In this document: positions 33,177-38,938 of the stretch, one piece after another
How the letters are laid out: every line of letters begins with the position of its first letter
Position numbering within the stretch: position 1 is the first letter of the stretch
From: Sanguibacter suarezii NBRC 16159
GTDB taxonomy: Bacteria > Actinomycetota > Actinomycetes > Actinomycetales > Cellulomonadaceae
Assembly (NCBI RefSeq): GCF_001552735.1
Contig: NZ_BCRT01000001.1
Coordinates: 124,001-188,000 of the forward strand
Reading direction: 5' to 3'
Length of the DNA: 64,000 bases
Translations under genes and position numbers: made by a program
The notes under the pieces: generated by a model
Told to the model about the DNA's origin: nothing
The model's database searches: none
Seen by the model: only the letters and a program-made list of their open reading frames with translations

Positions 33177-34577
33177 CTACTGCTGGTCGAGCAGCGGACC
33201 GCACCCGGCGGACTCGGCGATGAACCCCGCAGCGGCGGTCGCGATGAGCCCGGACAGACCGCTGCCCTCCGGCAGCGGGCGCGGGTCGGGCGAGACCGTC
33301 CAGCAGGCGTCGACGACCTCGTAGGTGGCGCCCGGGCCGTCGGTGACGAAGGTGCTCAGCGCACCGAGCAGCCGCTCGACCTCCTCGAGGGTGGTGCCGA
33401 CGCCCACGCTCGCTCGGATCGCCCCGGCGGCGTAGCCCAGGCGAGAGAGCAGCGGGTGGGCGCAGAAGCGGCCGTCACGCACACCGATCCCGTACTCGGC
33501 GGACAGGTACGCGGCCACCAGACCCGGGTCGTGGTCGACGACGGAGAAGGTCACCACGCCGACCGGGTCGACGGCGTCCGCCCAGGCCCGCACCACCTGC
33601 ACACCGGGGATGGCCTCCAGCCCGGAGACCAGGCGCTCGCGCAGGAAGGCCTCGTGGGCCTCGAGGGTCCCGGCGGGCAGAGCCGCGAGCGCGTCGCAGG
33701 CCGCGGCGAGGGCGACCGCGCCGATGACGTTCGGGGAGCCGGCCTCGTGGCGGGCCGGCGCCGTGGTCCACACCACGGAGTCGACGTCGACCTGGCGCAC
33801 GGCGCCGCCGCCGGCCAGGTACGGGGTGCCGGCGTCGAGCCAGTCCCGGCGGCCCACCAGCGCGCCCGAGCCGAAGGGGGCGTAGGTCTTGTGCCCGGAG
33901 TAGGAGATGTAGTCCACACCGGTCTCGGCGAGGGAGAAGCGACGGTGCGGGACGAGCTGGGCGCCGTCCAGCGCCACGCGCGCACCGGCCTCGTGGGCGA
34001 GCGCGACGACGTCGGCCACCGGGAGGTACTCCCCGGTGACATTGGAGGCCCCGGTGAGGGCGAGCAGCGCATAGGGCGCCCGGGCGAGCTCGGTGCGCAG
34101 GGCCGCCAGGGTCGCGGCGACGGAGTCCTCGCCATGCAGGACCGTCGCGCCGCCGGCGCTGCGCTGCCAGGGCAGCAGGTTGGCGTGGTGCTCGACGTCC
34201 AGGACGAGCACGCGGCCCGGCTCTCCGTCGGGGCCGGCGGGCACGCAGCCGGCGAGCAGGTTGAGGGAGTCGGTGGTGTTGCGCGTGATGACGGTGACGT
34301 CGTCGGTGCGGGCACCCACGAAGGCGCCGATGGTCTGGCGGCTCGCCTCGTAGAGGGCGGTGGACACCTGGGAGAGGTATCCGGCGCCGCGGTGCACGCT
34401 CGCGTACAGCGGCAGCGTCGTGGTGACCCGCTCGGCCACGGCGACCAGCGCCGGGGCGCTCGCCGCACAGTCGAGGTTGGCGTAGGCGATGGTGGTGCCG
34501 TCGACCAGCGGGACGAGGGTGTCAGAGCCGACGACGGGAAGGCAGGACCGGGCTTCGGTCGGGGTCAGGACAGGCAT
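33177..34577 (-). CDS. Cysteine desulfurase/selenocysteine lyase-like PLP enzyme under a SAM-IV riboswitch
   Basis: A 466-residue class V aminotransferase-fold enzyme. The PLP lysine is Lys230 in SYSGHKTYAPFGSGALVG; His131 in VLDVEHHANLLPW and Asp204 in ALDGAQLVPH are the usual cofactor contacts. A cysteine aligned with the SufS active-site Cys is present (Cys372 in VRDGRFCAHPLL), followed by IRASVGVGTTLEEVERL, so sulfur or selenium abstraction is plausible. No suf or isc genes are nearby. A SAM-IV riboswitch lies 90 nt upstream, and GGAGG precedes the ATG, linking the enzyme to methionine/sulfur supply rather than Fe-S assembly. Confidence 0.87.
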   Translation of the reverse strand: MPVLTPTEARSCLPVVGSDTLVPLVDGTTIAYANLDCAASAPALVAVAERVTTTLPLYASVHRGAGYLSQVSTALYEASRQTIGAFVGARTDDVTVITRNTTDSLNLLAGCVPAGPDGEPGRVLVLDVEHHANLLPWQRSAGGATVLHGEDSVAATLAALRTELARAPYALLALTGASNVTGEYLPVADVVALAHEAGARVALDGAQLVPHRRFSLAETGVDYISYSGHKTYAPFGSGALVGRRDWLDAGTPYLAGGGAVRQVDVDSVVWTTAPARHEAGSPNVIGAVALAAACDALAALPAGTLEAHEAFLRERLVSGLEAIPGVQVVRAWADAVDPVGVVTFSVVDHDPGLVAAYLSAEYGIGVRDGRFCAHPLLSRLGYAAGAIRASVGVGTTLEEVERLLGALSTFVTDGPGATYEVVDACWTVSPDPRPLPEGSGLSGLIATAAAGFIAESAGCGPLLDQQ

Positions 34578-34667
34578 GAGGATCCTCCGTGCAGTTGAGG
34601 GGATCTCGTGCCGTCAGCGATGTACCGCACCGACCCCGCGCTTGCCGGAATGCCTTCTCGGCTCCGG

Positions 34668-34751
34668 CCAGGTCTTCACCCGGGGCACCCCACCGCGGAG
34701 GAGGGTTGCCGGCCAGCAAACCGGGGTTTTGCGCTGGCACTCATGACCTGG
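34668..34751 (-). promoter_or_regulatory. SAM-IV riboswitch aptamer
   Basis: On the minus strand, P1 is CCAGGTC/GACCTGG (34745-34751 with 34668-34674). Between lie the near-invariant segments ATGAGTGCCAGCG, TTTGCTGGCCGGCAACCCT and GGTGGGGTGCCCCGGGTGA, which reproduce the SAM-IV consensus almost base for base. The leader continues about 90 nt to the desulfurase-like gene. A hairpin GCCGGA/TCCGGC (34644-34668) immediately follows and touches P1 by one base, so it could act as the expression switch. SAM binding should lower expression. Confidence 0.9.
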
Positions 34752-34862
34752 GTCCAGCATTCGTGAGGAACTCAGGGGTGTCAATCTGCAGGCACGCGGC
34801 GTCTCGCATCATGGACCGACCGTCTCAGATACGGCTCGCGGGGTGATGCTCAGTAGGACACA

Positions 34863-34969
34863 CCATCCAGAGCGGCTGAGTGATCTGGCACGACGACGCC
34901 GCAGCAACCCCCTTGCCCAGCCCTGACGGGGCTGACGCAGGGCGAGGGTGCTACCGCCGGAACCGATGG
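34863..34969 (+). promoter_or_regulatory. SAM-I-type (S-box) riboswitch aptamer
   Basis: P1 is CCATC (34863-34867) with GATGG (34965-34969). P2 is GCGGC/GCCGC (34872-34876 with 34898-34902) enclosing TGAGTGATCTGGC; then GCAACC, a P3 stem TTGCCC/GGGCGA with inner AGCCC/GGGCT, and GGTGCTACC, all in the S-box order. It ends 10 nt before GGAGG of the rhodanese gene, so control is probably at translation initiation. SAM-I versus the SAM-I/IV variant cannot be settled by eye. Confidence 0.82.
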
Positions 34970-34989
34970 ACGACAGACGGAGGCATGAC

Positions 34990-35418
34990 ATGACCTATGC
35001 AGGCGACCTCACCCCCCAGCAGGCCTGGGACCTGCTCGAGAGCAACCCGGACGCGATCCTCGTGGACGTGCGCACCGAAGGCGAGTGGCGCCAGGTCGGC
35101 GTGCCGGACACCTCGTCCCTCGAGGGCGACCGCGCGGCGTTCATCGAGTGGACCACGCCCTTCGGCCCGAACGAGAACTTCCTCACCGAGCTGGCCGAGA
35201 CCGGCCTCACCCCCGGCGACGAGCGGCCCGTCATCTTCCTGTGCCGCTCCGGCAACCGCTCCATCGGCGCGGCCATCGACGCGACCGCAGCCGGGTTCGG
35301 CCCGGCCTACAACGTCCTGGAAGGCTTCGAGGGAGACACCGACGCCGCCGGGCAGCGCACCGTGAACGGCTGGCGCCTGCGCGGCCTGCCGGCCACCACC
35401 TACACCGCCGGGGAGTGA
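34990..35418 (+). CDS. Rhodanese-like sulfurtransferase
   Basis: A 142-residue single-domain rhodanese. The catalytic loop is CRSGNRS (residues 85-91), with Cys85 as the persulfide carrier, preceded by the conserved VDVRTEGEW. The start ATG at 34990 has GGAGG 6 nt upstream; an upstream in-frame ATG at 34948 lies inside the riboswitch and is rejected. It is the first gene of the riboswitch-controlled operon and is followed 5 bp later by metZ, suggesting it supplies or channels sulfur for homocysteine synthesis. Confidence 0.9.
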   Translation: MTYAGDLTPQQAWDLLESNPDAILVDVRTEGEWRQVGVPDTSSLEGDRAAFIEWTTPFGPNENFLTELAETGLTPGDERPVIFLCRSGNRSIGAAIDATAAGFGPAYNVLEGFEGDTDAAGQRTVNGWRLRGLPATTYTAGE

Positions 35419-35423
35419 CGACG

Positions 35424-36704
35424 ATGGCCACCCCCGACGCCGCGACCAGCACCGACTGTCCCGCCGACGCTGCTGCCACCACCGCAGGGACCGCGACTGC
35501 CACGAGCGAGCGCACGCTGCGCCCGCAGACCCTCTCGGTCCGCGGCGGCCAGCTCCGGTCCAACTTCCAGGAGACCTCCGAGCCGATCTACCTCACCCAG
35601 GGGTACGTCTACTCCAGCGCCGGGGAGGCGGAGTCTGCCTTCAAGGGTGAGACCGACCGCTTCATCTACTCCCGCTACGGCAACCCCACGGTGCACATGT
35701 TCGAGGAGCGCCTGCGCCTGCTCGACGGCGCGGAGGCCTGCTACGCCACGGCGACCGGCATGTCCGCGGTCTTCACCTCCCTCGCCGCCCTCGTGAGGTC
35801 GGGCAGCAGGATCGTCTCGGCCCGCGCACTGTTCGGCTCCACGGTCGTGATCTTCGAGGAGATCTTCGCCGACTGGGGCGTCACGGTCGACTACGTCGAC
35901 GGCCACGAGCTCGACCAGTGGCAGGCCGCCCTGGCCACCCCGGCCGACGTCGTCTTCTTCGAGACCCCGTCCAACCCCATGCAGGACATCGTCGACGTCC
36001 GCGCCGTCGCGGACCTGGCGCACGCGGCAGGGGCCGTCGTCGTGCTCGACAACGTCTTCGCCACCCCGATCCTGCAGCAGCCCTTCGCGCTGGGCGCGGA
36101 CGTCGTGGTCTACTCCGCGACCAAGCACATCGACGGCCAGGGCCGCGTGCTCGGCGGGGCGATCCTCGGCTCGACGGAGTACATCGAGGGCCCGGTGCAG
36201 AAGTTCATCCGCAACACCGGGCCGTCGCTGAGCCCCTTCAACGCCTGGGTGCTGCTCAAGGGCCTGGAGACGTTGCCGCTGCGGGTCCACGCCCAGACCG
36301 CGGCAGCGCTCAGGGTCGCCGAGCACCTGGAGACGCTGCCCGGGATCTCCCGGGTGCGCTACCCCTTCCTGCCCTCCCACCCGCAGTACGAGCTCGCCCG
36401 GTCCCAGCAGACCGGGGGCGGAACGGTGGTCACCTTCGACCTCGCCGTCCCGGAGGGCACCGACCCGGAGACCGCCAAGAAGCGCACCTTCGCCTTCCTC
36501 GACGCCCTCCAGGTCATCGACATCTCCAACAACCTCGGCGACGCGAAGTCGCTCATCACGCACCCGGCCACCACGACGCACCGCAAGCTCGGCCCCGAGG
36601 GCCGCGCCGCCGTGGGCATCGCGGAGACCACGGTGCGGCTGAGCATCGGCCTCGAGGACCCGCTCGACCTCATCGAGGACGTGGAGATCGCGCTGCGCGC
36701 CTGA
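35424..36704 (+). CDS. metZ: O-succinylhomoserine sulfhydrylase
   Basis: A 426-residue PLP enzyme of the Cys/Met metabolism family that makes homocysteine from O-succinylhomoserine and sulfide in the cytoplasm. Landmarks: IYSRYGNPTV, the PLP lysine Lys234 in YSATKHIDGQGRVLGGA and ATTTHRKLGPEGR near the C terminus; the last resembles MetZ rather than cystathionine gamma-synthase. The N-terminal 30 residues are a low-complexity extension. The gene is 5 bp behind the rhodanese gene and shares its SAM riboswitch. Its stop codon abuts the stop of the convergent nanE without a gap. Confidence 0.92.
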   Translation: MATPDAATSTDCPADAAATTAGTATATSERTLRPQTLSVRGGQLRSNFQETSEPIYLTQGYVYSSAGEAESAFKGETDRFIYSRYGNPTVHMFEERLRLLDGAEACYATATGMSAVFTSLAALVRSGSRIVSARALFGSTVVIFEEIFADWGVTVDYVDGHELDQWQAALATPADVVFFETPSNPMQDIVDVRAVADLAHAAGAVVVLDNVFATPILQQPFALGADVVVYSATKHIDGQGRVLGGAILGSTEYIEGPVQKFIRNTGPSLSPFNAWVLLKGLETLPLRVHAQTAAALRVAEHLETLPGISRVRYPFLPSHPQYELARSQQTGGGTVVTFDLAVPEGTDPETAKKRTFAFLDALQVIDISNNLGDAKSLITHPATTTHRKLGPEGRAAVGIAETTVRLSIGLEDPLDLIEDVEIALRA

Positions 36705-37406
36705 CTACTGGGCAGCCGCCGCGAACCGCGCGGTGATCTGACCCGGCCGGGTGATCGCCCCACCGACGACGACCGCCCAGGCTCCACGGCGCAGCGCCTC
36801 GGCGACCTCCTCGGGTGAGCCGATCCGCCCCTCGGCCACCACCGGGATCTCCAGTGCACTGGCCAGCTGTTCGACGAGGTCGAGGTCGGGCCCGCTCGGC
36901 ACCGGGCCGCCGGTGTACCCCGACAGGGTGGTGCTGACGACATCGGCGCCCGCGTCGGCCGCGGCGACACCCTCGGCGAGGGTGGCGACGTCGGCCATGA
37001 CGAGCCGGCCGTAGGTGCCGTGCACGAGCTCGACCACGTCGGCGAGCGTGCTGGCGTCGGGGCGCTCGCGCCCGGTGCCGTCGACCGCGACGATGTCAGC
37101 CCCTGCCTCGGCGACGGCGCGCACGGCGGCCAGGGTCGGGGTGATGTAGACCGGCGTCCCCCCGATCTTCCACAGTCCGATGATCGGCGCGTCGGTCCGT
37201 GCGCGGACGGCCGCGACGTCGTCGGGCCCTTCCAGGCGGACGGCGCTCGCGCCGCCGCCCAGCACGGTCATGGCCATCGCGGCCATGTGCTCCGGTCCGC
37301 GCAGCGGCTCCCCCTCGGCCGCCTGGCAGGAGACGATGAGGCGGCCGCGGACGGCGTCGAGCGCGTCCGGACTCACGGCAGTCGGGCTCGCGGCGTCCGG
37401 ACTCAT
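36705..37406 (-). CDS. nanE: N-acylglucosamine-6-phosphate 2-epimerase
   Basis: A 233-residue TIM-barrel enzyme converting ManNAc-6-phosphate to GlcNAc-6-phosphate. Family landmarks: LIVSCQAAEGEPLRGPEHMA, IIGLWKIGGTPVYITPT (catalytic Lys), GADIVAVDGTGRERPD, TLSGYTGG and VAEGRIGSPEEVAEALRRGA. The ATG at 37406 overlaps the stop of the DUF4127 gene (ATGA). It is the last gene of a GntR-ROK-DUF4127-nanE operon. No sialic acid lyase (nanA) or transporter is in the window, so the pathway's entry point may be ManNAc or an unrelated amino sugar. Confidence 0.92.
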   Translation of the reverse strand: MSPDAASPTAVSPDALDAVRGRLIVSCQAAEGEPLRGPEHMAAMAMTVLGGGASAVRLEGPDDVAAVRARTDAPIIGLWKIGGTPVYITPTLAAVRAVAEAGADIVAVDGTGRERPDASTLADVVELVHGTYGRLVMADVATLAEGVAAADAGADVVSTTLSGYTGGPVPSGPDLDLVEQLASALEIPVVAEGRIGSPEEVAEALRRGAWAVVVGGAITRPGQITARFAAAAQ

Positions 37407-38938
37407 AGCCCCGCGCCGTCCGTCACGTCCACGATGGACAGGTCGATCTCGAAGGTCCGGGCCCACGGGAAGCTCAGGCTCCCAGGGACCACCTGCAGGC
37501 CCTGCAGCCCGGGGCTGGCCGCCAGGATCTCGCGCAGCTCGTCCTCCCAGGCGGCGGCGGACGGGTGGGCGCCGCTGACGTCGTCGTGACGGGCCGGGTC
37601 AGAGCCGAGCGTGAGACGAGCCTTGTGGCGCACCACGGACATCCATCCGTAGTCCTCGACCACCCGGCGGGCGATCGCGAGGCGGTGCGCCTGGGCGTCG
37701 AAGCTGCCGGCGGCCCGGCCCAGGTGAGCCACGACGAGCTGAGCGGCCACCGTGCCCAGGGTGTTGCCGGCGGTGTTCCAGGCGGCGTAGCCGTCCAGGT
37801 CGGCCCAGCTCATGGCCGGGGCGAGCGCGCCGACCAGGGCAGGGTCGGCGCCGTTGGGCTGGGCGACGTCGGCGAGGGCCACCCGGTGCCCGGCGGCGAG
37901 CAGCTCGGTGACGACCGCGGTGGTGCGCGCCGCACCGTCCCAGTCCCAGGTGTCCTTGGGCGCGCCAGCCCAGCTCGCGTGGTCGACGGCGCAGCCCGCG
38001 CTGGCACCGCAGACCGGGCAGAAGGGCGGGTGGACGACGAGGACGATGTCGGCCTCAGCCACGTCCTCCACGACGGTGGCGCCGGCGGCCTCGAGCTGGC
38101 GGACCACGGTGAGGCGGACCGGGCCGGTCTCGTAGGGTGCCGGGCGGTCGAGGCCGTCCGCGTCGGCGCAGGCGAGGGCGACCCGCGGGCCGCTCAGTCC
38201 CAGGTGCTGACCGATCGCCCGGGCCACGAGCACGGCACCGGTCTCGTCCGCGCCGGGGTGGACGATCACGCGGTCGGTGGTCCCCGCGATCTGGGACCAC
38301 CGGGCGAGGTCGGTCTGGGCGCGGGCAGACAGGGACTTCAAGGCCGCGTCGTCCACGCCGACGACGAGGGTGTCGAGGGTGCCGCGCTGGGCCATGCTCA
38401 GCGCAGCCAGCGCCAGGGTGTGCTGCCGCAGACGGCGCCCGGTCCAGTCCGTGACGACGTCGTCGGGCACGGCCGGAGCGACCGTGTCGCGGGCCGCGGT
38501 GAGCTCGTCCTCGGTCGAGGCGAGCTGGGCGGAGAGCGCGTGCAGGTTCGGGCCGTGCTGGCTCCAGTACTCCGGCTCTTCCATCGCGTCCAGGCTGTTG
38601 GGGGTGCGGGGCACGACGATGGCGGCGTGCACCGGACCGCCCGGCTCGGTCAGCGGACGCCACAGGGCGAGCACGTCCTCGACCGGCTCGTGACCGATCC
38701 GTGAGCCGATCAGACCACCGAAGCCGAGGGCGTCCAGGCTCACCACGGCCGCGTCGGTGCGAGCCCGGGAGGTGCGGAACCACTCCGAGACGGCCTCGGG
38801 GTCAGGCGCCGTGCGGCAGTGCGGGCGCAGCTCCACGGGTGGCGTGGCGACGCTGACGCCGGCGATCGCGGCGACCTCCTGGGGGATGGCCCGGGTGGCC
38901 GGGCGGTCGTCGAGCGGGAGCAGGGTGAGCGTGATCAT
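37403..38938 (-). CDS. DUF4127 family protein in an amino-sugar operon
   Basis: A 511-residue cytoplasmic protein of uncharacterised family DUF4127. The N-terminal LLPLDDRPATRAIPQEVA, SLDALGFGGLIGSR and the central HPGADETGAVLVAR are the family's recurring motifs. An unusual cluster CPVC (307-310) with Cys316 and His320 could bind a metal; I do not know whether it is conserved. No membrane segment or signal is present. Start and stop overlap the flanking genes by four bases each, so it is translated in step with the kinase and nanE. Conserved Asp/His/Glu residues suggest a hydrolase or lyase, but this is inference. Confidence 0.8.
   Translation of the reverse strand: MITLTLLPLDDRPATRAIPQEVAAIAGVSVATPPVELRPHCRTAPDPEAVSEWFRTSRARTDAAVVSLDALGFGGLIGSRIGHEPVEDVLALWRPLTEPGGPVHAAIVVPRTPNSLDAMEEPEYWSQHGPNLHALSAQLASTEDELTAARDTVAPAVPDDVVTDWTGRRLRQHTLALAALSMAQRGTLDTLVVGVDDAALKSLSARAQTDLARWSQIAGTTDRVIVHPGADETGAVLVARAIGQHLGLSGPRVALACADADGLDRPAPYETGPVRLTVVRQLEAAGATVVEDVAEADIVLVVHPPFCPVCGASAGCAVDHASWAGAPKDTWDWDGAARTTAVVTELLAAGHRVALADVAQPNGADPALVGALAPAMSWADLDGYAAWNTAGNTLGTVAAQLVVAHLGRAAGSFDAQAHRLAIARRVVEDYGWMSVVRHKARLTLGSDPARHDDVSGAHPSAAAWEDELREILAASPGLQGLQVVPGSLSFPWARTFEIDLSIVDVTDGAGL

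Follow-up and report, generated by a model that had tools for sequence, protein, structure and literature searches.

The intergenic region between two divergent sulfur operons of Sanguibacter suarezii carries two SAM riboswitches of different classes, a SAM-IV leader on the minus strand and a SAM-I (S-box) leader on the plus strand. This divergent pair is confirmed here within the window, that is, the whole 64-kb stretch of DNA that was analysed. In the reading that we prefer, with a probability of about 0.7, it is a conserved divergent module. Two outward promoters would transcribe a SufS-like desulfurase gene behind a SAM-IV riboswitch, and rhodanese and metZ behind an S-box without helix P4, and plentiful SAM would lower translation on both sides. 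The two aptamers and the genes next to them are as follows.

33177..34577, minus strand: SufS-like class V aminotransferase / cysteine desulfurase, 466 aa, start ATG at 34577 (PF00266, 265.4 bits)
34633..34748, minus strand: SAM-IV aptamer (RF00634, 109.4 bits)
34860..34972, plus strand: SAM-I aptamer without P4 (RF00162, 48.0 bits; pair counts from 39 aligned copies, 38 of them distinct)
34990..35418, plus strand: rhodanese-domain protein, 142 aa (PF00581, 36.1 bits), with the loop CRSGNR read from the translation
35424..36704, plus strand: metZ, O-succinylhomoserine sulfhydrylase (NF005870, 730.9 bits, cut-off 618)

A cmscan of the 64-kb window returned only these two RNA matches, both in the one intergenic region. 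The SAM-IV match exceeded its gathering cut-off of 38 by a wide margin (E 2.9e-19) and was full length, with model positions 1-116 aligned to 34748-34633. The SAM-I match, also full length, lay closer to its cut-off of 44.4 (E 6.5e-08). Both were reproduced when cmscan was restricted to 34578-34989. These scores bear out the initial annotation, which had proposed SAM riboswitches of two different classes on opposite strands; its spacing of 111 bp is also the figure given by cmscan, and its S-box coordinates (34863-34969, plus strand) run exactly from P1 to P1 of the match. The SAM-IV aptamer that it had placed at 34668-34751 (minus strand) was present, but had been drawn too short at the 3′ end, since the match reaches 34633. 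The third model that it had named, RF01725 (SAM-I/IV), had no match at E 0.001 anywhere in the genome, which rules out an aptamer of that kind. Both the low E-values and the many family genomes that share the divergent pair make a chance finding unlikely. From aptamer identity, both RNAs presumably bind SAM; their action is presumably in the OFF direction. The genome as a whole contained two SAM-I and three SAM-IV matches; the second and third SAM-IV leaders (G000:C1:87428-87538, L004, and G000:C13:57896-58012, L005) precede reading frames of 230 and 175 aa, respectively.

The flanking genes were, as previously supposed, divergent sulfur genes, with the desulfurase on the minus side and rhodanese-metZ on the plus side. 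The desulfurase scored 274.5 bits against the SufS model TIGR01979, under the cut-off of 475.1. Its translation contains SGHK and FCAHP, which we take to be the PLP-lysine and catalytic-cysteine sites. A pathway taking sulfur from cysteine to homocysteine would connect the two operons. Convergent with metZ lies a gene for a NanE-type N-acetylmannosamine-6-phosphate 2-epimerase (36705-37466, minus strand).

The arrangement was widespread in Cellulomonadaceae. The family sample comprised 121 genomes, among them that of the window itself; 109 had RF00162 and 110 had RF00634. Pairs were sought among the best 150 matches of each Rfam model, so that the pair counts are lower bounds. Both classes lay within 3 kb of each other in at least 41 genomes, always divergently, and in 33 of these the gap was 86-144 bp. 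A model built from 41 family S-boxes (R1) was then searched in the 69 genomes that had SAM-IV yet no pair, the 11 genomes without SAM-IV being left out. It matched in 65 of the 69 and, together with the 150 listed SAM-IV matches, yielded a divergent pair within 6 kb in at least 48 more genomes. In total, at least 89 of the 121 genomes, representing at least 21 of 25 genera by hand tally, had head-to-head pairs within 6 kb. The two aptamers lay no more than 200 bp apart in 63 of them and 200-400 bp apart in 2, with a longer gap in the remaining 24. No other orientation was found among the close pairs listed, and 32 genomes had no pair among the matches listed. The gene neighbours were the same in all 41 pairs checked, with the SufS-like desulfurase on the minus side and rhodanese followed by metZ on the plus side; in one of them metZ was absent because the contig ends before it, and in some a small additional reading frame precedes the rhodanese gene.

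Of 80 named rhodanese loci scanned with the Rfam models, 12 had the divergent pair and 10 only a minus-strand SAM-IV (one of them truncated at the end of the locus). Eight had a plus-strand SAM-IV immediately before rhodanese-metZ, and 50 had neither arrangement. The eight belong to Nocardia, Aldersonia and Antrihabitans; the same operon is thus found under a different SAM class in another group of actinobacteria. The R1 model matched an S-box in 22 of the 80 loci, several of which were also in its training set, and these were the 12 divergent pairs plus the 10 loci with SAM-IV alone. The Rfam cut-off thus missed 10 of the 22 copies found by the tailored model, which suggests that it overlooks many copies of the P4-less variant. 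In a further family, locus L192 has SAM-IV before a desulfurase that, judged by eye, is similar to the window's, and also a P4-less SAM-I that is divergent from it and precedes a different gene.

The elements of the plus-strand leader were placed as follows.

34863-34867/34965-34969, plus strand: S-box P1
34872-34902, plus strand: S-box P2
34903-34952, plus strand: S-box P3
34885-34888/34957-34960, plus strand: S-box pseudoknot (L2-J3/4)
34979..34983, plus strand: Shine-Dalgarno sequence GGAGG, its first base 10 nt beyond the last base of P1

S-boxes from 39 of the 41 pairs were aligned after dropping two near-duplicates, giving 38 distinct rows. Paired cells made up 98.6% of 910 in the helices, against 95.8% in shuffles, and by element the paired share in the distinct rows was 99.5% in P1, 100% in P2, 99.6% in P3 and 92.7% in the pseudoknot, whose outermost pair was broken in 10 of 36 rows. 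P2b showed a U-A/A-U exchange in 17 of 38 rows. Four pairs had changed on both sides (1.7 in shuffles). There was no excess of further pair types over shuffles, as 309 of 500 shuffles reached the observed number.

Helix P4 was absent from all 41 family pairs, in which the stretch from P3 to P1 is just 11-13 nt long. We therefore classed these S-boxes as a P4-less variant and not as canonical members of SAM-I. The 29 loci read at class level comprised six P4-less copies from outside the family, with a stretch of 11-12 nt, and 23 from other actinobacteria with a longer one; in the latter, the distance from P3 to the first GATG was 18-52 nt, three short ones (L195, L206 and L207) appearing truncated by a GATG inside P4. 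Rfam confirmed RF00162 in all four that were scanned of the 23 longer loci and in five of the six P4-less ones. At class level R1 had matches in 137 of 246 genomes, which is not a count of P4-less copies, since S-boxes that have P4 score about 29-57 bits with this model too.

That the S-box score lies near the cut-off could be taken to mean that only one of the two RNAs is a true SAM sensor, the second having come to recognise a different ligand, all the more as the ligand is deduced from family membership only. We regard this as very improbable: the missing P4 plausibly explains the low score, 49 columns are invariant across the 39 aligned copies, and metZ is a methionine gene.

In 36 of the 41 pairs, GAUGGAGG joins the 3′ strand of P1 to the Shine-Dalgarno sequence, and the start codon follows mostly 4-7 nt on. 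The P1-fused GGAGG has been lost in the window's own genome (G000) and in G056, G070, G082 and G095, where other GGAG-type sequences start 5-11 nt past P1; all of these except G095 belong to the window's genus, which is represented by six genomes in the sample. Folding of 40 of the 41 leaders (G062 omitted) gave no clear sign that blocking P1 opens the Shine-Dalgarno sequence. Openness of the window's Shine-Dalgarno sequence was 0.38 with P1 and 0.30 with the 5′ strand of P1 blocked. Mean openness was 0.29 with P1 and 0.35 without it in the 35 P1-fused leaders, and 0.29 and 0.33, respectively, in the five shifted ones. It could be argued that the window's S-box is decaying: it would have kept its fold but lost control of rhodanese-metZ, its Shine-Dalgarno sequence having left P1, and the SAM-IV side alone would be regulated. 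The loss of the fused GGAGG from most sampled members of the genus, and from G095, would agree with this, as would the failure of the window's moved Shine-Dalgarno sequence to open when P1 is blocked. Decay nevertheless seems unlikely, since P1, the pseudoknot strands and the core are retained in all five genomes (with one P1 pair fewer in G095 and a failing second pseudoknot pair in G082) and the window's S-box is still above the Rfam cut-off.

On the minus strand, the SAM-IV match extends over the stem that lies 3′ of P1, in which non-standard pairs are marked, and over the CAAGCGCGG tail. The PK-2 strand of the window's copy is presumably CGCGG (34640-34636). Two further structures were predicted downstream of it.

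34600..34637, minus strand: predicted alternative helix of GGGGUC (34637-34632) with GAUCCC (34605-34600), sharing 2 nt with the PK-2 strand, from the comparison of tail-linker duplexes with swaps
34578..34607, minus strand: predicted hairpin covering the Shine-Dalgarno sequence GGAGG (34588-34584), arms 34607-34599 and 34588-34578, from the minimum-energy fold with PK-2 locked

A start could be assigned in 36 of 41 SAM-IV leaders (all except G012, G015, G017, G039 and G070), and dropping five repeats left 31 distinct leaders, which are related and do not amount to 31 independent cases. Across these 31, a G-rich strand at and after PK-2 pairs with a UCCCC-like segment. The mean energy of this tail-linker duplex was -10.94 kcal/mol in matched leaders against -9.13 for between-genus swaps; it was stronger than its own swapped mean in 28 of the 31, the window's included, and none of 2000 random reassignments was equally strong. 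To our knowledge, a covarying tail-linker helix has not been described before in SAM-IV.

Pairing between the linker and the Shine-Dalgarno sequence was less well supported, the matched duplex having a modest advantage over swaps (p 0.004) that was seen in 21 of 31 leaders. In the window, the best such duplex used other linker bases and, at -11.2, was weaker than its swapped mean of -14.2, which counts against that part of the model. In the window's minimum-energy fold, the UCCCC-like segment does cover the Shine-Dalgarno sequence (34607-34578). With PK-2 locked, Shine-Dalgarno sequences were mostly covered over the 31 leaders (mean open 0.23); freeing PK-2 opened nine by more than 0.1, closed one and left 21 little changed. 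The window's own was among the unmoved, with an openness of 0.17 in either state.

Three further elements, lying between the aptamers, were proposed for the shared control region.

34756..34784, minus strand: candidate promoter of the SAM-IV leader, TTGACA (34784-34779), 17 nt, AATGCT (34761-34756), at a position conserved in close pairs
34801..34809, plus strand: GTCTCGCAT element (GTCTCRNAT), candidate operator between the two promoters, at a position conserved in close pairs
34845..34850, plus strand: weak -10-like GATGCT of the SAM-I leader, identified by eye

Of the 33 close pairs, 26 had TTGACA at a distance of 30-32 bp from the SAM-IV aptamer (shuffled mean 0.4). TANNNT lay 10-12 bp ahead of the S-box in 25 (shuffled mean 4.9), none of which was among the six close pairs of the window's genus. 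A stricter consensus scan of the window's region reported no promoter. With these spacings, both transcript starts would fall at the aptamers. GTCTCR was found in 29 of the 33 close pairs (shuffled mean 1.9), mostly between the promoters, and its first copy lay 50-55 bp from SAM-IV in 24 of them; the GTCTCRNAT element is perhaps an operator.

The mechanism that we propose for the divergent module follows from these elements. Each of the two outward promoters would start a transcript where its aptamer begins, or close by, the minus transcript forming the SAM-IV riboswitch for the desulfurase and the plus transcript the P4-less S-box riboswitch for rhodanese and metZ. At high SAM, the two aptamers would fold and translation of both operons would be lowered. 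On the SAM-IV side, folding of PK-2 would make the G-rich strand unavailable to its alternative partner, the UCCCC-like segment, which would then be free to help mask the Shine-Dalgarno sequence. In most relatives, P1 of the S-box extends into the Shine-Dalgarno sequence. As that of the window starts 10 nt past P1, either P1 would act there solely by crowding the site where the ribosome lands, or control would be weaker.

No terminator-like site was found in 34500-35060, where Rho-dependent ends would not be visible in sequence. An intrinsic terminator was thereby ruled out, and both leaders probably act on translation. Translational control of the metZ side, expected from the start, is the likely mode in relatives with their P1-fused Shine-Dalgarno sequence, but the window's own lies outside P1. 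The initial annotation had noted neither this position nor the missing P4, nor that the pair recurs in the family. Attenuation had been thought possible on the other side; here the lack of a terminator-like site, the predicted Shine-Dalgarno hairpin and the covarying alternative helix all spoke against it. More generally, transcription attenuation in one or both leaders, intrinsic or Rho-dependent, is quite improbable. It is a common mode of SAM riboswitches elsewhere, as described in PMC9943018, and Rho-dependent ends would have escaped us; the scan gave no candidate, however, and on the plus side the 9 nt from P1 to the Shine-Dalgarno sequence are too short for a terminator. An antisense role, considered because of the same source, was ruled out as the two transcripts would diverge.

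Parts of this system have precedents. In Streptomyces lividans, according to PMC8079986, SAM-IV precedes a cysteine desulfurase (SLIV_26975) and the genome also has an S-box, so that both classes occur in one genome. The window's SAM-IV resembles that case in the desulfurase downstream, and RF00634 in its full-length match including the stem and tail 3′ of P1; it differs in standing head to head with SAM-I and in its covarying tail-linker helix. A ribosome-binding site within P1 of SAM-I, as in the window's relatives, is a mode of translational control known from Barrick and Breaker (PMC2258182). The S-box shares with RF00162 the core, the L2-J3/4 pseudoknot and helices P1 to P3, including the internal loop in P2, and the family copies depart from it in lacking P4 (11-13 nt, against 18-52 nt to the first GATG elsewhere). 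SAM-I/IV is named as a SAM class alongside SAM-I and SAM-IV in PMC6890682, and according to PMC2864571 its variants have no internal loop in P2; the window's S-box has that loop, and the genome has no RF01725 match. Two SAM classes at one place are described in tandem in PMC11508383, whereas those of the window are on opposite strands before two operons. Among the papers listed in our literature searches, there was none on a divergent SAM-I/SAM-IV pair and none on S-boxes without P4, and the words “divergent” and “opposite strand” are absent from the main text of a 2025 survey of contiguous riboswitches (PMC12452182). We accordingly rate the divergent SAM-IV/SAM-I arrangement and the P4-less S-box as new, and both riboswitch kinds and SAM-IV before a desulfurase as already known.

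Outside the window, the genome has a metF-type S-box leader (L001, G000:C4:193908-194012, minus strand), with relatives in L019, L021, L029, L030, L215-L223, L225, L226, L231, L233 and L234. In a chosen, not random, set of 29 metF-type leaders (MetF assigned by eye for some), 19 had GGAAGCCUCC in loop L3. A complement to this motif occurred within the first nine codons in all 19, in differing registers (GGCUUCC, GGAGGCUUC, GAGGC), and was significant against shuffles (p <0.05) in 17 of the 19 and in none of the 10 without the motif. The 41 rhodanese leaders showed no such lock (0 of 41 at p <0.05, with the mean duplex weaker than shuffled). In L219-L221, L225-L227 and L232 (metF-type, by eye), a frame of about 4-19 codons overlaps the next start as ATGA or GTGA, a possible case of translational coupling.

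SAM-IV is not known to have a P4 between P3 and P1. A broader and more speculative interpretation, which we hold only tentatively, is that the P4-less S-box is a subclass between SAM-I, with which it would share P2 and the pseudoknot, and SAM-IV, with which it would share the lack of P4. Many metF-type copies would have gained pairing between L3 and the first codons, a start-codon lock similar to PK-2; placed head to head with SAM-IV, the S-box would give one cell two sensors with separate set points and one shared control region.

The absence of P4 throughout these copies suggests that this helix of the S-box is dispensable in nature. The divergent pair offers a natural paired comparison of two SAM riboswitch architectures, presumably with the same ligand, in one cell and at one control region. 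As it is kept in most sampled genomes of the family, it can be used to ask why bacteria keep several riboswitch classes for one ligand.
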